From NCBI GenBank assembly GCA_028679775.1, contig JAJRAX010000063.1:1-11752 (forward strand): a DNA stretch of 11,752 bases, read 5' to 3'. Source of the DNA: Methanothrix sp. Lineage in GTDB: Archaea; Halobacteriota; Methanosarcinia; Methanotrichales; Methanotrichaceae. The notes beneath the pieces were generated by a model. It did not search any database. It saw nothing but the letters and a program-made list of their open reading frames with translations, and was not told where the DNA came from. The translations under genes and the position numbers were made by a program. Shown piece after piece: positions 2,593 to 11,752 of this stretch (position 1 is the stretch's first letter; every line of letters starts with the position of its first letter).

Positions 2593-2644
2593 TATCCGCG
2601 GCTGTCATAATGGATTATTCATCATTTATTTGGGGGATATAGAT

Positions 2645-4192
2645 TTGAAGCTCAGATCCATTGAGGTTGTATTTTTGATTGTGCTTTTAGCATTTTCAGC
2701 CCCGGTTCTCTTTGCTGATGGAAGCGATGATGTGGGCAGTGCGACATCGAGAGAAGAGCTAGTCGCACGGCAGTTCGACGCCTTAAGGCAGAATCCTGAG
2801 GAATTGAGGGCCTTCTTTCTGGCCATGCCCAAGGGCGGAGATATCCACAACCATTTGACTGGAGCAGTTTATGCCGAGAATCTGATAGATCAGGCAGTTG
2901 CAGGGGACCTTTGCGTAAGTCTAGATAACTACACGGTCTCAGCCAATTACTGCGACACGAACAACTCAGAACCTGTTGATGACGCCTATTCGAACTCCAA
3001 GCTGTATGGCAAAATAGTCGACGCTTGGTCAATGAGGGATTCCGAGTTGCTCGACGATGAGGACGAGAGCCAGCGCGACCATTTCTTCAACACCTTCGGA
3101 ACCTTCGGAGGAACGACAGGAAATACCAGCGCTCTGTTGGCATATCTTCGGTCCAGCGCGTACCGGGAGAATGTGGCGTATCTTGAAATCATGACCGGCG
3201 CCGGATCAGCTGCAGCTAACCTGGGCAGCACTGTTGGGTGGGACGACAACCTATCGGCGTTTTACAGCAAGCTCGTAGACAACGGCCTTGGTTCTGTCTC
3301 CCAAAGCCTGAGCGATTACATAAATGATACTGATAGCGGTTCATTGAGCATTCTTAATAATGAGGGCGATCCTGGGAGCAGCATCCCTGTCCGTTACATT
3401 CTATCAGGCACCAGGACGATGTCTAAAGAGAGGGTCTTCGGCCAGCTCGCGGCGGCCTTCGATGCTGTTAATAGATCAAGCCTGGCAGTAGGCGTGACAC
3501 TCCTGGCAGCCGAGGACAATTGGCGATCCAGAGAGGACTACTCCCTGCAGATGGAGATGGTCGGTTTCCTTCACAGCATCTATCCAAATGTCAGCATAGC
3601 TCTGCATGCAGGAGAGCTGAATCTCGGGCTCGTGCCGACTGATGACCTTAGGTTCCACATAAAAGAGGCTGTTGAAGTCGCACACGCTTCAAGAATCGGA
3701 CACGGAGTGGATATTATGTGGGAGCTGGACTCCGATGAGACCCTTAAAGAAATGGCCAGGAACCATGTGGCAATTGAGATCATGCCTGTGAGCAACCGGG
3801 TTATCCTCGGGGTAACCGGAAAGGACCATCCGTTCCCTGTCTACTTTGAGCGCGGGGTGCCTGTTGTTCTGGCTTCAGACGACGCTGGAGTGCTGCGTAC
3901 TGATCTCGGCGAGCAGTTTGTGGTCATAGCTTCTGATTATCCCCAGATCAAGTACCAGGATTTCAAAAAATTTGTGAGAAACAGCATCGAATACAGCTTC
4001 CTGGAGGGAAAAAGCATATGGTCGTCCAAAGGAGATTACACCAGATTGGTCCCCGAATGCTCAGGCTGCAATCCGGGATCCGATAACCTTGAAGCAAAGT
4101 GCAAGGCCTTCCTAAACGGGAACAATAAGGCCAAAATCCAATGGAAGCTGGAAGGTGATTTAGCTGCATTCGAGGAAAAGTATTCTAAGTGA
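2645..4192 (+). CDS. Secreted adenosine deaminase-family metallohydrolase
   Basis: This is a 515-residue member of the adenosine/AMP deaminase amidohydrolase family, which removes the 6-amino group of adenosine to give inosine using one zinc ion. The metal and catalytic residues are complete: HNH (His68, His70, in GGDIHNHLTGA), HAGE (His321, Glu324), IGHG (His353) and ASDDAG (Asp412, Asp413). TTG at 2645 is preferred because GGGGG lies 8 bases ahead and the product then begins with a clean signal peptide: KLRS, a hydrophobic run (IEVVFLIVLLAFSAPVLFA), then DGSDD. A TTG at 2630 in frame lacks a ribosome site. The protein is therefore predicted to act outside the membrane. Extra length over cytosolic enzymes (about 350 residues) lies in an insert before the HAGE motif and a Cys-containing tail (ECSGCNPGS, KCKAF) that could form disulfides; this recalls extracellular ADGF/ADA2-like enzymes. 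Substrate preference is not provable here. Confidence 0.86.
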   Translation: MKLRSIEVVFLIVLLAFSAPVLFADGSDDVGSATSREELVARQFDALRQNPEELRAFFLAMPKGGDIHNHLTGAVYAENLIDQAVAGDLCVSLDNYTVSANYCDTNNSEPVDDAYSNSKLYGKIVDAWSMRDSELLDDEDESQRDHFFNTFGTFGGTTGNTSALLAYLRSSAYRENVAYLEIMTGAGSAAANLGSTVGWDDNLSAFYSKLVDNGLGSVSQSLSDYINDTDSGSLSILNNEGDPGSSIPVRYILSGTRTMSKERVFGQLAAAFDAVNRSSLAVGVTLLAAEDNWRSREDYSLQMEMVGFLHSIYPNVSIALHAGELNLGLVPTDDLRFHIKEAVEVAHASRIGHGVDIMWELDSDETLKEMARNHVAIEIMPVSNRVILGVTGKDHPFPVYFERGVPVVLASDDAGVLRTDLGEQFVVIASDYPQIKYQDFKKFVRNSIEYSFLEGKSIWSSKGDYTRLVPECSGCNPGSDNLEAKCKAFLNGNNKAKIQWKLEGDLAAFEEKYSK

Positions 4193-4277
4193 GTGACAAA
4201 TGCAAAATTCGCGGCTCAGCGGTCCGATTTTAACGGCAAGGACGCTGGCCGCTTGCATTGCGTGGATTGGGGGTAAA

Positions 4278-4418
4278 GTGACTTCCTCCCATGCCACTGA
4301 AGGGGCAGGGCTTCCTGCTTCATCGAGCACGCGGAGCGAAAGTAATGAAAGGGGTACGATTCATCCCATCTCCTTCAGGGGATGGGTCTTCTCTACCCCT
4401 TTACCCCAACGTTATAAT
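4278..4418 (+). mobile_element. Solo IS200/IS605-type terminus with two hairpins (element scar)
   Basis: GTGACTTCCTCCCATGCC...CTGAAGG...GGGCTTCCTGCTTCA (4278-4323) forms one stem: CCC-A-TGCC against GGCA-GGG, with a bulged A. CCCATCTCC-TTCA-GGGGATGGG (4365-4386) forms a second 9-pair stem with one G-T pair, followed by TCTTCTCTACCCC. These are the shapes and words seen at the right end of IS200/IS605 and IS1341 elements, next to tnpB and including its omega RNA 3' end. No tnpA or tnpB frame is present. A related copy lies at 8291-8355. The 334-base stretch 4193-4526 holds this scar and the kinase promoter; I see no gene in it. Assignment is from remembered terminus patterns. Confidence 0.55.
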
Positions 4419-4484
4419 TTATTTGGTATGTTTGTCTCTATAGTTGGCTTGATTTTGTAGCTAGCTAGATGTATCTAAAATTCC

Positions 4485-4526: not shown

Positions 4527-6935
4527 ATGAGCAACGACATTGTAGACCACTTGCGTGTTGAGGAAGCTTTGCAGGACCCTACGCAAGTCTCAGAAATCAG
4601 CAAAGCTCAGTACGAGCAAGTCGTCTCAATGATATCCGATATCATCTGGCGCTATGATGTCGATGCCAAAGGAGAGAACGCAGGCTCTTATATCTCGCCG
4701 GTTGCAGACCGATTGCTCGGCCTGCCGGATGGTAGCATCAGCAATAGCTTTGAGAGATATTTTTCCTATGTCCATCCTGATGACTTGCCAGTTGTTCGGC
4801 AGATGCTCTTTGAGGGAATTCGGACGCTCGGCAAGGAGTGGACAAAAGAATACCGTTTGATTAAAGCAGACGGATCGATCCTCTGGGTTCGGTCCAGAGG
4901 TTCTGCCTATCGCCTGGAAAATGGCCTGATGGTCGGATTTGGGACCACGAGCGATATTACCGACAGCAAGCGGGCGGAAAAATCACTCATTAACAGCGAG
5001 GAGCGATACAGATCCGTCGTCGAAAATGCAGCAGAAGGGATTGTTGTTGCTCAGGATGACAAATTGCAGTATGCGAATCCTCGTGCCCTCCGGATGCTTC
5101 AGGTCAGTCTCAAAGAGATCGGAGATGCGTCATTCGTCTACTTTATCCATCCTGATGATAGAGCATTCGTCTTCGATCGTTACCAGAAGCGTATCAGGGG
5201 CGAGGATGTTGTCCAGAACTACGATTTTCGGGTGTTAGGCAAGAGCGGACTGCTGACATGGGTCCAGATCTCAGCAGTGAGGATCATATGGAACAATCGG
5301 TCTGCGACGCTAAACTTTCTCATCGACATAACCGAGCGAAAAAAGATGGAAGATGCACTGCATTATAGCGAAACACGGTATAAGGAATTATTTGACAATA
5401 TCAGCAGTGGTGTGGCTATTTATAGAGCCATAGACGATGGCAACGATTTTATCATCGAGAATCTTAACAAGGCAGGAGAAAAGCTGGACGGCGATTTTAA
5501 GAGAGATCTCATTGGCAAGAGCATCTTAGAAGCTCGCCCAGGCATTAAGGAATTTGGGCTTTTTGATGTCTTAAAAAGGGTGTGGGAGACCGGCGTTCCG
5601 GAGCATTTCCCAATAGCTCATTACCAGGATACCAGGCTCTCAGGATGGTATGAGAACTATGTATACAGATTGCCTTCTGGGGAAATCGTTGCCGTCTATG
5701 ACAATCTCTCCGAGAGAAAGCTGGCTGAGGAGGAATTGCTGAAAACAAATCATCAACTTGAGGAAATCATCGTCCAGGCCAAAGAATTGGCCCTGCAAGC
5801 AGAGATGGCCAGCATCGCCAAGAGCGAATTTCTGGCTAACATGAGTCATGAGATCAGAACCCCCATGAATGCGATCATAGGCATGACTGGTCTTCTACTG
5901 GATGAGAATCTCACTTCTGAGCAGAGAGAATATGCCGAGATCATTCGTAGCAGTGGGCAAGGGTTGCTTGTCATCATAAACGACATCCTCGACTTCTCAA
6001 AGATAGAAGCGAACAAGATCGAGCTGGAGTGCCAGCCCGTTTGCCTTGGGAGATGTGTTAGGGAGGCTCTGGATATTGTCGAGATTGCGGCTTTTGAAAA
6101 GGGACTGAAGACCTCATACCTAATCGAGAAAGACACTCCTGAGATCGTTTTGGGTGACTCCACAAGGATCCGGCAGGTTTTGGTCAATTTACTGAATAAT
6201 GCTGTCAAGTTCACGAATAAGGGCGAAGTGACTGTCTTGGTCTCCAGCAGAAAACTTGAAGGCATCAGTCATGAGATCCATTTCGAAGTGAAGGATACAG
6301 GAATCGGGATTCCTGATGAGAAGAAGAACCGCTTATTCCAATCCTTCAGCCAGGTTGATGCATCGACTACACGCAAGTATGGTGGTACAGGGCTTGGCCT
6401 GGCCATAAGCAAGAGGCTCGTAGAGCTAATGGGCGGGAGAATTTGGGTTGATAGTGATGTCGGAGAGGGGTCTATATTTCATTTTACCATCCGAGTTGAG
6501 CCTACAATCTGCAAACCGGTAGCATTCAACCAGCTCAGCTCTCTGGATTTGGCTCATCCTGCAAACCACGACCTGCAGATACTGCTTGCCGAAGATAACA
6601 CGGTTAACCAGATGGTGACTCAGAAAATGCTTAACAAGCTCGGTTACAGGGCAGATGTGGCGGCAAACGGCATCGAGGTCCTGCAGGCTTTAGAGCAAAA
6701 GGCCTACGATGTCATCTTGATGGATTTACAGATGCCGGAAATGGATGGTTTGGAGGCGACCCGAATCATACGCCAAAGATGGACTGATGAACTCAGGATA
6801 ATCGCAATGACTGCATCAGCACTGGTGGGCGATCGTGAGATGTGTCTTGCTGCGGGCATGGATGGCTATATCAGCAAACCGGTAACCTTCGAGGAGCTGC
6901 ATGCAGCTCTTCAATCCTGCGAAAAGAGTAAATAA
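4527..6935 (+). CDS. PAS-PAS-PAS-HisKA-HATPase-REC hybrid sensor histidine kinase
   Basis: This 802-residue protein has no membrane segment or signal peptide, so it should sense a cytoplasmic signal. Three PAS modules occupy about 30-150, 157-272 and 283-400. The first two carry PAC endings (FGTTSDITDSKRAE, NFLIDITERKKMED) and the third ends VYDNLSERKLAEEE. A short coiled linker follows. HisKA holds the phosphoacceptor His441 in FLANMSHEIRTPMNA. The ATPase domain has an N box (NLLNNAVKF, Asn557), G1 (DTGIGI, 590-595) and G2 (GGTGLGLAIS, 619-628). The C-terminal receiver (683-800) has acidic Glu689/Asp690, phosphoacceptor Asp733 (MDLQMPEMDG), Thr762 and Lys784, so all key residues are intact. 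No Hpt domain, response regulator or output protein is nearby, so the phosphate route is unknown. It stands alone between an insertion-element scar and a small basic protein gene. Confidence 0.95.
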   Translation: MSNDIVDHLRVEEALQDPTQVSEISKAQYEQVVSMISDIIWRYDVDAKGENAGSYISPVADRLLGLPDGSISNSFERYFSYVHPDDLPVVRQMLFEGIRTLGKEWTKEYRLIKADGSILWVRSRGSAYRLENGLMVGFGTTSDITDSKRAEKSLINSEERYRSVVENAAEGIVVAQDDKLQYANPRALRMLQVSLKEIGDASFVYFIHPDDRAFVFDRYQKRIRGEDVVQNYDFRVLGKSGLLTWVQISAVRIIWNNRSATLNFLIDITERKKMEDALHYSETRYKELFDNISSGVAIYRAIDDGNDFIIENLNKAGEKLDGDFKRDLIGKSILEARPGIKEFGLFDVLKRVWETGVPEHFPIAHYQDTRLSGWYENYVYRLPSGEIVAVYDNLSERKLAEEELLKTNHQLEEIIVQAKELALQAEMASIAKSEFLANMSHEIRTPMNAIIGMTGLLLDENLTSEQREYAEIIRSSGQGLLVIINDILDFSKIEANKIELECQPVCLGRCVREALDIVEIAAFEKGLKTSYLIEKDTPEIVLGDSTRIRQVLVNLLNNAVKFTNKGEVTVLVSSRKLEGISHEIHFEVKDTGIGIPDEKKNRLFQSFSQVDASTTRKYGGTGLGLAISKRLVELMGGRIWVDSDVGEGSIFHFTIRVEPTICKPVAFNQLSSLDLAHPANHDLQILLAEDNTVNQMVTQKMLNKLGYRADVAANGIEVLQALEQKAYDVILMDLQMPEMDGLEATRIIRQRWTDELRIIAMTASALVGDREMCLAAGMDGYISKPVTFEELHAALQSCEKSK

Positions 6936-8113: not shown

Positions 8114-8355
8114 AATTACCCACCAATGAATTGGCGGGCATGAGCACCACCGATATTGGGGGCTTGTAGCTGCGCAAAAAGTCGCGCTACGATAGGCCGG
8201 TTGCCATCAGGCCTGCAAAGCCCTGCACAGTCCTCATTAGACCAGACCCACGTTGTCCCAGAGCGCCTGTAGGAAATCGAATGGTGTAATGTGACTTCCT
8301 CCCATGCCCCTGAAGGAGATGGGTCTTCTCTACCCTTTTACACCAACGTTATAAA
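8114..8355 (+). mobile_element. Probable decayed or non-autonomous IS200/IS605 derivative
   Basis: The left hairpin CCCACCAA-TGAA-TTGGCGGG (8118-8137, one A/C mismatch) sits in CAATTACC...GCATGAGC. The right side is GTGACTTCCTCCCATGCCCCTGAAGGAGATGGGTCTTCTC (8291-8330), shared with 4278-4295 and 4381-4395; I describe it by position and the key words CTTCCTCCC, CTGAAGG and GGGTCTTCTC. Similarity with the first copy continues through the CCAACGTTATAA word (8342-8353). Compared with 4278-4418, about 75 bases between the two hairpins are gone, as if recombined across the CTGAAGG loop. The interior has no intact frame; no tnpA or tnpB is seen. This block fills the gene-free stretch 8018-8419 together with the promoter at 8053 and the terminator at 8369. 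Confidence 0.45.
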
Positions 8356-8368
8356 ATAATAGGCCTTA

Positions 8369-8419: not shown

Positions 8420-9136
8420 TTACACGCAGGGCAGCCAATCAACGCTGATTGAACCGCATGTGGAGTTGCCCCAGAGCTGAATGAACTTCTCGATGGAGAA
8501 GACACCAGTCAGGTCCTCGACGGATCTGCCATACTCAGCATGGCGGCCTTTAAGCTGATTGTCAGCTGTGGGGTCCCTGGAAATCCATCCGATGTGAGCG
8601 ACGCCGATGACATTGCTGTTCAGGTTGGCTTCGAGAACGCCTGTGCAGCACGGCATTTGAGTCGCGTTATTATATCCCCTGGTCTTGATCTCGGTGGTCT
8701 TCTGCAGGTGCTCGGCATGAGTGTACATTTCAGTCAAAACTGCACCGATCTTGTAGTTCTGCACGCAGAGTTTGTCTACCCACTTCTGGTCATAAGTGCC
8801 GGTCTGGTAAGAAACGGGCATATACTCCAGCTCCTGCTCGGAGGTGAAGTTGATGTAATCCATGGGATAATCCGCACCGGTTGGCCAGTCACAATCCAGA
8901 TTCGAAGGCTGCCTCTCAGCTTCCAGCTCAATTCTTGAAGTGATCACATTTCCTGAGCCGGACTGCTTCTCAACCAGCTTCTGTCCGTGAAAGCCACTCT
9001 CTGTGGATATGACGATCTCAAGGCTCCTGTAGCCCACACCTTTTACAGACGATTTCTCGTACATGTAATTGGCAGCGCCCGCCATTCCCACAAGTGTCAT
9101 GGCAATTACTGCTAAAACCAATAGCTCTCTCTTCAA
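8420..9136 (-). CDS. Secreted protein of the GxG/IGAxVxE family (238 aa)
   Basis: TTG at 9136 is chosen because GGAGGT lies 8 bases ahead and the product opens with a signal peptide, MKRELLVLAVIAMTLVGMAG, cut before or near ANYMYEKS. The mature part is about 215 residues, with seven cysteines including CC (163-164) and a tail STCGSISVDWLPCV suggesting disulfides. It shares three landmarks with the next two genes: a V-x-G-x-G opening (31-35) with a second GSG at 60-62, YKIGAVLTEMY (128-138), and DLTGVFSIEKFIQLW (208-222). No enzyme motif or membrane anchor is visible, so it is predicted to be released or held on the cell surface. Its C-terminal 31 residues are identical to those of the partial gene at the right edge. 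A TATA-like TGATATAATT (about 9202-9211) implies a leader of roughly 45 bases. Function unknown. Confidence 0.8.
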   Translation of the reverse strand: MKRELLVLAVIAMTLVGMAGAANYMYEKSSVKGVGYRSLEIVISTESGFHGQKLVEKQSGSGNVITSRIELEAERQPSNLDCDWPTGADYPMDYINFTSEQELEYMPVSYQTGTYDQKWVDKLCVQNYKIGAVLTEMYTHAEHLQKTTEIKTRGYNNATQMPCCTGVLEANLNSNVIGVAHIGWISRDPTADNQLKGRHAEYGRSVEDLTGVFSIEKFIQLWGNSTCGSISVDWLPCV

Positions 9137-9352
9137 TCCACACTACCTCCTATAGCCTGGGCACTCCGCACGTTGAGAATCCAGTTGCGTCATCCTCTTT
9201 AATTATATCAGAGGTGACAGATCCAAAACAATTCCAGGCCGTCACTCTCATAATACCCTAGCACCCGTTTAGACGTTCTCAGGAGCCTATTTTAATGTTT
9301 TGGCTGGCATTATCAAAATGACGAAATCCTTCGAAAAAGAGATGGAACAGAC

Positions 9353-10531
9353 TTACTTGCCAAACGAGTTCAGTCTGTTCACGAAGTTGTTGCAGGAGAT
9401 GCTATTGCATGGACTGACAACCTTGGGCTTGACCGATACCGGCGCAGAAGCGCTAGCTACACCCTGACAGTCTCCCTCTTGGCAAGCGGCAGTCGATTTG
9501 GTATCATCTCTGAAGAGTATCCTTCTGCTGATCTCAAATGATCCGAAATACTCCTCGAACTCTTTGAGATTCTTCTGTCCGGGAATTACCTGCTTGGCAT
9601 CAATCAGATAATATCCTGTGAAATTGTCTGCTGTCTTGAATTCAGCCGTCTTCTTCAATGATCCAGTCTGATGCAATGTGAAATCCTGGTTCTTGAACTC
9701 CATCTGCTGCACATCATAGCTCTCGCGTACTTTAGCCCCGACTCCGCCAAAGATTGCAGAGCTCTTGAAGCTCTCAGTTCCAGTTAGCGCGTCTCCTGCC
9801 GAGACCGCATTGTAATTGTCAACGGCATCTTTTTCCTGGAAATTGGCGTTCTTGCCCTTGGCCGCGTCTACAAGATATTCATTCTTCACCAGAGCATCAA
9901 CGCTGCCGGAAAAGATGACATCCTTAGTGGACTTGATCCCGGAATCCATGCTCCGCAGGTTTTTGGTCATCTGGAACTGTCCGGAGCCGCTCACAGTGGT
10001 CTCTGAGGCATAATCAAATGCCTGTACCTTGAATTTTGCAGATCTCTGTCCTGAGGTGCGGCATTTCCCGCTGGCCTCCACAGCAAAGCTGTACTCTCCG
10101 GCAACAGCCTCGCTGTCCGGCTGAACCTGCAAGGACACTGATCGAGAAACGCCTGCAGGAATTGTCAACGTAGTGGTCGTCCAGCTAAACCAATCGAATG
10201 AGCAGCCTTCTGGCTTGACGCAGACCTCAGCGTCCACATCTGTAACGCCATCGTTCTCTACAGTGACCATGAAGTCCAGCGGCTTACCCTGGGTGGTATA
10301 TCCTTTATCTGGCTCAGACTCCGGCCCAGTAAGACCGATCTTGACATCCAGCGTGCCCGAATCGCCAGAGCAGGGACTGGGCAGATACGTAGGCAAGGAT
10401 GGAGACGTGGTTTGGGTCCAGGGGCTGCTCGAAACATCACCTGCGGCGGTGCCTGTGTCCTCTACAGTGGCCTGTGCAAGCCCTGCCGCCAGGATTGATG
10501 TTATTGTTAACCAAATCATCAATCTTTTCAT
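9353..10531 (-). CDS. Secreted NEW3/CARDB-like protein fused to the GxG/GGVGAxV family domain
   Basis: ATG at 10529-10531 follows GGGGG a few bases upstream and starts a signal peptide (MKRLMIWLTITSILAAGLAQ). An upstream in-frame start at 10576 lacks one and is less likely. The 392-residue product has a Ser/Thr/Pro-rich linker (30-55). A beta-sandwich of the NEW3/CARDB type covers about 60-170 (KPLDFMVTVENDGVTDVDAE, then IPAGVSRSVSLQVQP, AGEYSFAVEA). The family domain covers about 178-345: TVSGSGQF, GSVDALVKNEYLV, FGGVGAKVRESYDVQQME (261-278) and YFGSFEISRRILF (328-340). The tail has paired cysteines (C350/C355, C375/C380). Such sandwiches usually act as surface adhesion or spacing units, so this member probably presents the family domain away from the membrane. 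No anchor is evident. The intergenic stretch 9137-9352 has only the promoter of the next gene and a T-rich run after this stop. Confidence 0.78.
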   Translation of the reverse strand: MKRLMIWLTITSILAAGLAQATVEDTGTAAGDVSSSPWTQTTSPSLPTYLPSPCSGDSGTLDVKIGLTGPESEPDKGYTTQGKPLDFMVTVENDGVTDVDAEVCVKPEGCSFDWFSWTTTTLTIPAGVSRSVSLQVQPDSEAVAGEYSFAVEASGKCRTSGQRSAKFKVQAFDYASETTVSGSGQFQMTKNLRSMDSGIKSTKDVIFSGSVDALVKNEYLVDAAKGKNANFQEKDAVDNYNAVSAGDALTGTESFKSSAIFGGVGAKVRESYDVQQMEFKNQDFTLHQTGSLKKTAEFKTADNFTGYYLIDAKQVIPGQKNLKEFEEYFGSFEISRRILFRDDTKSTAACQEGDCQGVASASAPVSVKPKVVSPCNSISCNNFVNRLNSFGK

Positions 10532-10542
10532 GCTAACCCCCA

Positions 10543-10560
10543 TTAAAACTAAAAAAAGAA
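10543..10560 (-). terminator. T-rich stretch between two secreted-protein genes
   Basis: On the minus strand, 20-odd bases after the stop at 10582, the sequence runs GGTTTTTCTTTTTTTAG and then reaches the GGGGG ribosome site of the next gene. Archaeal transcripts often end in such U-runs without a hairpin. Because it lies within the next gene's leader it may cause partial termination rather than a full stop. Confidence 0.4.
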
Positions 10561-10581
10561 AAACCGCTGGCCACAATGGGC

Positions 10582-11379
10582 CTAGCAGTCTATGCCCTCG
10601 CAGGGAACTGGGATCCTTTCTGGCACTGGGTTCTCATGGAACTTGATGGTCTTCTCGGCTTCGAACACTCCCGTGAACATCTCGTGGGCTTTGATGTCCT
10701 TGTAGAAGATCTTGTGCCAAGTTGCATCTGTTCCCCAGGTACCATTGAAGGAGTTCTTGGTCTCAAGGCCAATCAGGTGCGCAGGATTGTATATGCCATT
10801 CTCGTCGGTCATGAGGGCCTCAACTGCCTCAGTATCCCTGCCTGCATTCTTGAGCAGGCTTGGTAGATTCTCAGGCTTTACGTTGTTGGCCGGCTCGTAT
10901 GGTGTGGTTGACGAGAAGAATGCGGTCTGATCCTGTTCCATCTCATTTACTGAGAACAGCTCCTGCACATTAGCTCCAATTCCGCCGTAGAACGCCTTGG
11001 AGTTGAGAAGCTTTCCGCCTGTCAAGGGCGTCTCGCCTGAATAAGTCATCTTTTTTGTCTGATAAAGATTAAATGCAGCGAGGTTGCTTCCATTGACGGA
11101 GGAGACATTTCTCTTAAGCTTATCGGCATCCTGAGAATATGCAGTCTCCTGGTCAAGCTCGATATCACCATCACCATTCATTGTATCGTAATATTCGAGA
11201 GCTATTTTTTTGTCGATTACAGATGTGCTGACATCGACTACGCCAGTTCCTGAAACCTTATGGCTTTCGCAAAACTGCTCATACTGTACGGGCGGAACTA
11301 TGGGCGGATTAGCCATCACAGTGCCGCATAGCCCTAAAAGGGCAATTGCAAGTACTACTATTCCTACTACTCCCTTCAT
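10582..11379 (-). CDS. Secreted protein of the GxG/GGIGAxV family (265 aa)
   Basis: ATG at 11377-11379 is preceded by GGGGGTGA 7 bases ahead and begins a strong signal peptide (MKGVVGIVVLAIALLGLCGT, then VMA and NPPIVPP). An upstream frame extension from 11583 adds 68 residues without a ribosome site and is rejected. Landmarks are KVSGTGVVDVSTSVIDKK (41-58), MNGDGDIELD (67-76), LTGGKLLNSKAFYGGIGANV (119-138), LFSVNEME (141-148) and FTGVFEAEKTIKFHE (235-249), with a short tail PVPERIPVPCEGIDC. The pattern of Gly-x-Gly turns and alternating residues suggests beta structure. Three cysteines occur: Cys37, Cys260 and Cys265. No known domain is recognised. It leads a run of three same-strand members and could share transcripts with 9353-10531, 50 bases downstream. 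Confidence 0.8.
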   Translation of the reverse strand: MKGVVGIVVLAIALLGLCGTVMANPPIVPPVQYEQFCESHKVSGTGVVDVSTSVIDKKIALEYYDTMNGDGDIELDQETAYSQDADKLKRNVSSVNGSNLAAFNLYQTKKMTYSGETPLTGGKLLNSKAFYGGIGANVQELFSVNEMEQDQTAFFSSTTPYEPANNVKPENLPSLLKNAGRDTEAVEALMTDENGIYNPAHLIGLETKNSFNGTWGTDATWHKIFYKDIKAHEMFTGVFEAEKTIKFHENPVPERIPVPCEGIDC

Positions 11380-11605
11380 GCTACATTCACCCCCGATGTT
11401 GATGTAACAGCTATATCCCATTGATTGCAGGCCATCTATCGCATGAAGAAGCGATCTATGGACTACTAGATATACTGTGGCGTTTTTATTTGATATAAAT
11501 CTATCTGTTATTTTCCCGGAAAAGAAGATTATCTGATCAAAGGCGGCGCGAATATCATATGTTCTTCGATTAATGAAAAGCAAGACAGATAAAATATAGA
11601 AAGAA

Positions 11606-11626
11606 CTCCAGGCATAATGCCCGGAG
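11606..11626 (-). terminator. Hairpin terminator after the truncated right-edge gene
   Basis: On the minus strand, CTCCGGGCA-TTA-TGCCTGGAG forms a 9-pair stem (one G-T pair) starting 31 bases after the stop at 11657, followed by TTCTTTCTATATTTTATC. Its position matches the hairpin after the near-identical gene end at 8420, though the sequence differs. Confidence 0.6.
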
Positions 11627-11656
11627 CCAGGTTCTAATGTTGTAGTTTTAGGCTAT

Positions 11657-11752
11657 TTACACGCAGGGCAACCAGTCAACGCTGATTGAGCCGCATGTGG
11701 AGTTGCCCCAGAGCTGGATGAACTTCTCGATGGAGAAGACACCAGTCAGGTC
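11657..11752 (-). CDS. C-terminal end of a near-identical paralogue of the 238-aa secreted protein (partial)
   Basis: Only the last 31 residues and stop are inside the window: DLTGVFSIEKFIQLW, then GNSTCGSISVDWLPCV. They are identical in protein to the end of the gene at 8420-9136. Over the 96 shared bases I count four differences, all silent (CTG/TTG, GAT/GAC, GGT/GGC, ATT/ATC). The start and the rest lie beyond the right edge. The gene belongs to the same minus-strand secreted-protein cluster. Confidence 0.9.
   Translation of the reverse strand, partial: DLTGVFSIEKFIQLWGNSTCGSISVDWLPCV

Follow-up and report, generated by a model that had tools for sequence, protein, structure and literature searches.

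Three complete genes and one truncated gene of a Methanothrix contig, here called A, B, C and D, encode archaeal sheath (SH) proteins, and it is very probable that these paralogs build the amyloid-like tube around the Methanothrix filaments. The SH protein family is already known, having been surveyed by Medvedeva et al. 2024 (PMC11576556), and is still without a named database model. According to that survey, SH proteins occur in all Methanotrichales in up to 40 copies, are clustered, and carry Ig-like domains in a subset of members; the proteins described here are likewise multi-copy, clustered, equipped with an Ig-like domain in some cases, and present throughout the family. An excerpt of PMC10470525 assigns Methanothrix a major role in methane emissions. 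The organism lives inside the tube and therefore meets viruses and partners at the sheath.

The genes and their orthologs

In the window (the whole stretch of 11,752 nucleotides that was analysed), the four genes lie on the minus strand, as the preliminary description had reported. Gene A (8420-9136) has a TTG start and encodes 238 aa, gene B (9353-10531) encodes 392 aa from an internal ATG, and gene C (10582-11379) encodes 265 aa with a C-terminal PCEGIDC and no Ig domain. Of a second A-type gene, D, only the 3′ end (11657-11752) is present, as the contig stops at 11752; its last 31 residues are 100% identical to the end of A, and the DNA is 96% identical over 98 nt. The three landmarks reported earlier were found in common order in A, B and C, respectively: VKGVG, VSGSG and VSGTG; IGAVLTEMY, VGAKVRESY and IGANVQELF; and LTGVFSIEKFI, YFGSFEISRRI and FTGVFEAEKTI. 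Within the window, D shows only the third. The N-termini of A, B and C are hydrophobic as judged by eye. These three proteins have no accepted Pfam or NCBIfam match and no useful PHROGs match, a phmmer search of A against the PDB returned a single match (E 0.4), and Rfam has no match in the window.

The orthologs were identified in a genome (G104) that we take to be M. thermoacetophila PT, which is a single contig of 1,879,471 bp. The identity of the orthologs is 73% for A, 55% for C and 58% for B (over 310 columns), and A, C and B stand side by side in the same order as in the window. Eight ORFs of at least 131 aa separate A from a nearby S-layer gene in that genome; this count was obtained from 12 naive ORFs by setting aside four (60-106 aa) by judgement, and retaining one of the four would shift it. 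The gap of eight fits the step from Mthe_0668 to Mthe_0677, which an excerpt of PMC10470525 gives as the S-layer gene, and by this count A, C and B correspond to Mthe_0668, Mthe_0667 and Mthe_0666. Taking identity, gene order, gene count and the identification of the genome together, we infer that A, C and B are the orthologs of these three genes. PMC11576556 gives Mthe_0668 and Mthe_0667 as the most transcribed SH genes and leaves Mthe_0666 unnamed in its main text. Mthe_0625 is not placeable by such a count, as 62 naive ORFs, many of them within a repeat array, lie between A and the gene of a fourth paralog class of the family (the D class, which is distinct from gene D). The preliminary description had called the family unnamed, and the probable orthology to Mthe_0667 and Mthe_0668 corrects this by placing it in the SH family of Medvedeva et al. 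2024; its guess at a sheath is borne out.

The cluster and the family are conserved. B directly follows C for 25 of the 28 C genes of named loci, a count that allows for overlapping stop-to-stop ORFs. The A profile matches all 26 genomes of the genus with 3-27 matches each (E below 1e-100 in 22). A search of the phylum matched 22 of 392 genomes, of which 15 belong to the own family and seven to three other families, and no own-family genome is among the 20 listed of the 370 that did not match. In this genome alone, SH-like sequences, some of them fragments, occupy 18 or more places on 15 contigs.

Evidence for a single family

The three complete genes and the truncated D belong together as one family, and further paralogs link them more closely than chance would. 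B and C match directly in a profile comparison (P 1e-7). With the first profiles, A had no significant match to B or C; broader profiles gave P 0.002 for both, and the best direct matches reached P 1.6e-4 for A-B (score 38.3) and P 0.0011 for A-C. Ten control families, some of them probably antisense ORFs, scored no higher than 16.6 with A and 19.4 with B. The weak direct match of A to B and C is bridged by the D class, which matches A with P 1.3e-19 over 225 columns and C with P 2.2e-7 over the N-terminal 111 columns; the comparison of the D class with B was not significant (P 0.009). The earlier claim of one family is thereby upheld, and the expected profile linkage of the three proteins was found directly for B-C and by way of the D class for A. 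One of the relatives sets retained 80 of 129 sequences, and the protein searches returned the best 120 each.

Iterated hmmsearch of 3672 ORFs reached 213 ORFs from the D-class seed, 184 from the A seed, 211 from the C seed and 214 from the B+C seed. Every run except the A-seeded one shared 208 ORFs, and the A-seeded set includes the C of the window and lacks its B. When 3672 reversed decoys were added, the D-class, A and C seeds gave 211, 213 and 207 matches with zero decoys, and the B+C seed gave 33 decoys among 246 matches. That the shared landmarks arose by convergence among secreted beta-rich proteins would agree with the weak A-B and A-C matches and with the D class-B result, but is extremely unlikely given the two strong D-class matches and the three of four iterated searches that converge without decoys.

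Structure models, conserved frame and variable loops

The AlphaFold2 model of B (391 aa; mean pLDDT 76, pTM 0.59) predicts an Ig-like domain ahead of a core of long beta strands. Residues 57-171 (10016-10360, minus strand) resemble the CARDB and NEW3 Ig-like domains (3idu, PF10633) in predicted fold, with a Pfam score below the cut-off; this likeness concerns one domain of B only, and the VIA-align matches of B to PDB structures cover the same domain only. The SH core follows at residues 173-340 (9509-10012, minus strand) with seven predicted strands (block pLDDT 71-89); archaeal SH proteins are characterised by a core of two beta sheets of six strands each. The A model, built from a shallow alignment, has a mean pLDDT of 32, so the fold of A as an SH core is proposed from homology.

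In A, variation is concentrated in loop 1, residues 76-90 (8867-8911, minus strand), which contains Cys82, and loop 2, residues 155-163 (8648-8674, minus strand), which ends in Cys163. Two of three strand-transfer alignments, one of them lacking strands 6-7, agree on this placement; in both, loop 1 overlaps the mapped end of strand 2, and in the third, made with a D-class seed, strand 6 crosses loop 2. The comparison of the loops drew on full-length ORFs of at least 54% identity at loci L023-L099, 89 in number, of which 88 are unique, together with the A of the window. Loop 1 is 12-72 residues long and has at least one cysteine in 88 of 89 sequences, and loop 2 is 9-44 residues long (89 sequences). 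The frame of the A-type paralogs averages 92% identity within a genome, and the loops change 5-10 times faster per site than the frame. C varies at positions matching the loops of A, placed by strand transfer from the B model: residues 85-102 (11074-11127, minus strand) match loop 1 and residues 159-200 (10780-10905, minus strand) match loop 2, with lengths of 16-75 and 6-84 residues among 137 sequences. The core of B is nearly constant in length (164-170 residues in 131 sequences), and B varies outside it, in the N-terminal Ig region and the tail. This pattern of core and loops maps the fixed parts, as assembly would require, against the parts that are free to vary. We found no description of two-loop variation on a conserved A-type frame in the literature searched, and the words "hypervariable" and "variable" are absent from the main text of PMC11576556.

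Concerted evolution through gene conversion was tested as the cause of the conserved A frame and is not supported, because frames of the same loop type share more synonymous codons between genomes (0.739, 33 pairs) than do frames of different types from one genome (0.634, 134 pairs), and in the one quartet that could be used the grouping follows loop type. For 29 of 73 frames, the nearest neighbour comes from the same genome. We also observed a weak signal of opposite sign, as different loop types share 0.634 within and 0.587 between genomes (3595 pairs).

Assembly of the sheath and alternative readings

According to the proposed mechanism, each protein is probably secreted via its N-terminal signal, and the shared core of putative long antiparallel beta strands would polymerise into amyloid-like beta-rings, which would stack to form the tube of the sheath. 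The probable orthologs of the two most transcribed M. thermoacetophila SH genes, A and C, are likely to be the bulk subunits, and a comparable abundance would be expected in this species. B would contribute its Ig-like domain, and the conserved cores would allow different paralogs to co-polymerise. The variable parts, namely the two loops of A and C or the N-terminal Ig region and tail of B, would presumably face outward and decorate the tube, and the cysteines of the A loops and C-terminal tails may cross-link rings through disulfides. The SH core is common to Methanothrix SH proteins and to Methanospirillum hungatei SH/MspA (WP_011449234.1) by the published description in PMC11576556. An excerpt of PMC10593813 gives the M. 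hungatei protein, also treated in PMC6242892, an outer-face cap and a cysteine-bearing linker; the cap, of six helices and a beta sheet, is unlike the proteins of the window. The sheath data statement in the excerpt of PMC10593813 names EMDB maps only. M. thermophila MspA (ABK14853.1), a reported sheath component, is a different gene; an excerpt of PMC10470525 labels Mthe_1069 as mspA, and PMC11576556 argues that this MspA was misidentified as the main sheath component.

Alternatively, the proteins might serve chiefly for contact, as adhesins or surface proteins that bind partners, rather than for tube building. The Ig-like domain of B, the highly variable A loops, and a paralog in this genome, with an open frame of 1124 aa and sub-threshold DUF7507 and CARDB matches ahead of its SH core, all fit such a role, but the most transcribed SH genes are probably orthologous to A and C, and C has no domain that Pfam recognises. 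We therefore regard this reading as improbable; B may combine contact and tube-building roles. It is very unlikely that A-D are S-layer or other lattice proteins. Although the N-termini are hydrophobic, the genes are multi-copy and an S-layer gene lies near the cluster in the comparison genome, A, B and C have no match to the S-layer Pfam profile (PF07752) at E up to 1, and the S-layer protein of that genome (720 aa, PF07752 E 3e-177) is encoded by a separate gene and belongs to a different family. It is also highly improbable that the genes belong to a provirus, as SH-like egress factors of viral origin: A-type proteins are encoded by 16 IMG/VR loci (62-85% identical in the best segment), but for the 13 viral ORFs that were compared, the best agreement with a host A is 0.82-0.88 of the frame, gene order within the cluster is kept throughout the family, and the remaining window genes tested with Pfam are of ordinary cellular kinds (PHROGs having been run on A, B and C alone). 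No C type was found in IMG/VR and no A in phage records, and a Foldseek comparison of the B model with viral predicted structures gave query TM-scores of at most 0.26 among the 50 rows listed, which is uninformative.

Within the sheath-building reading, the preliminary description had suggested a variable surface repertoire. Its sequence side holds in part, in that the A-type paralogs of a genome have a common frame and most of their differences fall in two loops; its functional side is our tentative proposal, which we consider possible but rather doubtful. A-type proteins could act as a display scaffold in which the amyloid frame stays nearly fixed and two cysteine-bearing loops have diversified into many paralogs per genome; each filament would then have a mosaic outer face, on which recognition by viruses or syntrophic partners could depend. 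The viral A-type copies, which might then serve as blank subunits, have mostly short loops and a host-like frame.

Kinship of the four genes

The minus strand of the window carries three complete open reading frames, A (8420-9136, 238 aa), B (9353-10531, 392 aa) and C (10582-11379, 265 aa), and one partial A-type gene, D (11657-11752), as the preliminary description had claimed. The window is contig C286 of a genome that is 83% complete, and base 11752, the end of this contig, falls within D. The landmarks of the proposed family occur in the claimed order in A, B and C, but in D only the last one is visible. An accepted Pfam or NCBIfam match was absent for all three complete proteins; B had a NEW3-type Pfam match below threshold.

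Protein searches at E up to 1e-3 found 2365 relatives of A, 673 of C and 306 of B. Among the best 120 matches listed for each, the names are mostly Methanothrix or Methanosaeta, and otherwise Methanotrichaceae, Methanosarcinales, Euryarchaeota or uncultured archaeon, which suggests a Methanothrix species as the source. The profiles of B and C matched each other (P 1e-7). A fourth paralog class, which ends in LPCC-x-GGW and which we call the D class (distinct from gene D), matched A (P 1.3e-19) and, in the N-terminal half only, C (P 2.2e-7); its comparison with B gave no significant match. These three matches bear out the proposal of one family for A, B and C, to which A is joined, on profile similarity, via the D class. 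Iterated searches of 3672 ORFs from four seeds recovered overlapping sets of 184-214 ORFs each. When 3672 reversed decoys were added as a specificity control, three of the four seeds were free of decoys at 207-213 matches, and the B+C seed drew in 33 decoys within 246 matches.

Sheath proteins and their gene order

The preliminary observation is correct and its guess at a sheath was good, but the family that it called unnamed is already known as the archaeal sheath (SH) proteins. According to the main text of Medvedeva et al. (2024; PMC11576556), all Methanotrichales have SH proteins, up to 40 per genome; their genes are clustered, their caps are varied and include Ig-like domains, and the most transcribed are Mthe_0668 and Mthe_0667.

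In the genome of one relative, G104, the orthologs of A, C and B (73%, 55% and 58% identical, respectively) adjoin one another. This genome, one contig of 1,879,471 bp, is presumably that of strain PT. Eight ORFs of at least 131 aa lie between its A gene and a PF07752 S-layer gene. Since Mthe_0677 is described as carrying an S-layer-related duplication domain (PMC10470525), counting ORFs to the S-layer gene suggests that A is Mthe_0668, C is Mthe_0667 and B is Mthe_0666. The A-C-B cluster is separated from a D-class gene by a repeat-rich stretch at ~671-678 kb (L174) that resembles a CRISPR array by eye.

C is followed by B for 25 of the 28 C genes in the named loci, one of the three exceptions being at a stretch end; A is present in every named locus because the loci were fetched by A. 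The two contigs of another relative, G001, give A-A-A-C-B-A on a single strand, with C assigned by a B+C core profile match.

The A profile matched in 26 of 26 genus genomes, with E below 1e-100 in 22 and only more distant A-like matches in the remaining four. The D-class profile also matched in all 26 and, across the phylum, in 22 of 392 genomes (15 from the same family and 7 from three others). SH-type proteins are present at three loci from other families of the phylum (L163, L164, L165), that of L163 looking A-type by eye.

The genome of the window has at least 18 SH-like places on 15 contigs, including short fragments on C348 and C318. The C348 fragment (8721-8822, in L010), an A-type N-terminus of 34 residues at the contig end, is 71% identical to A and could belong to the opposite end of D or of a further copy. 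At 4983-5270 of contig C273 (L020), an SH core lies inside a 1124-aa open frame, preceded by matches to DUF7507 and CARDB, both sub-threshold, resembling the sheath adhesins described in PMC11576556.

Frame and loops

A-type proteins combine a conserved frame, with a mean identity within genomes of 92% (142 pairs), and two loops of 12-72 and 9-44 residues (n=89 sequences). Every A copy had a distinct loop pair in 19 of the 20 genomes with at least two unique copies, the difference sometimes being one residue. Against the 120 closest listed relatives, per-site change in the loops, with gaps scored as changes, was 5-10 times that of the frame, already at the smallest divergences. Gene conversion as the source of frame conservation was tested and unsupported.

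In C (n=137 sequences), the loops span 16-75 and 6-84 residues and the core segments are steady at 48-57. The B core is 164-170 residues long (n=131 sequences). Its mean share of the top residue, 0.89, exceeds that of the Ig domain (0.74) and those of the N-terminal stretch and tail (0.62-0.65).

The frame-and-loop pattern may be the new part of these findings. Among the best 20 of 85 search results, judged by title and abstract opening, none addressed how the loops of SH proteins vary, and the main text of PMC11576556 describes diverse cap domains without using "hypervariable" or word-initial "variable". Within the literature searched, the gene names Mthe_0668, Mthe_0667 and Mthe_0666 led to one paper.

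A-type genes also occur at 16 IMG/VR loci, in agreement with the viral SH-like proteins reported in PMC11576556. Among 13 viral ORFs compared, near-duplicates included, ten have loop 2 at the 9-residue minimum, two have long loops and one has only loop 2 long.

Other features of the window

An adenosine-deaminase-family protein (2630-4192; PF00962, E 3.8e-17) is possibly secreted, because its N-terminus is hydrophobic by eye. A hybrid histidine kinase (4527-6935) contains PAS domains and, at its C-terminus, a receiver domain. The window also has two copies (4270-4426 and 8283-8363) of a short dispersed repeat of ~60-75 bp, which may be an insertion-element end or a miniature element; 52 matching stretches occur in this genome, many close to contig ends.
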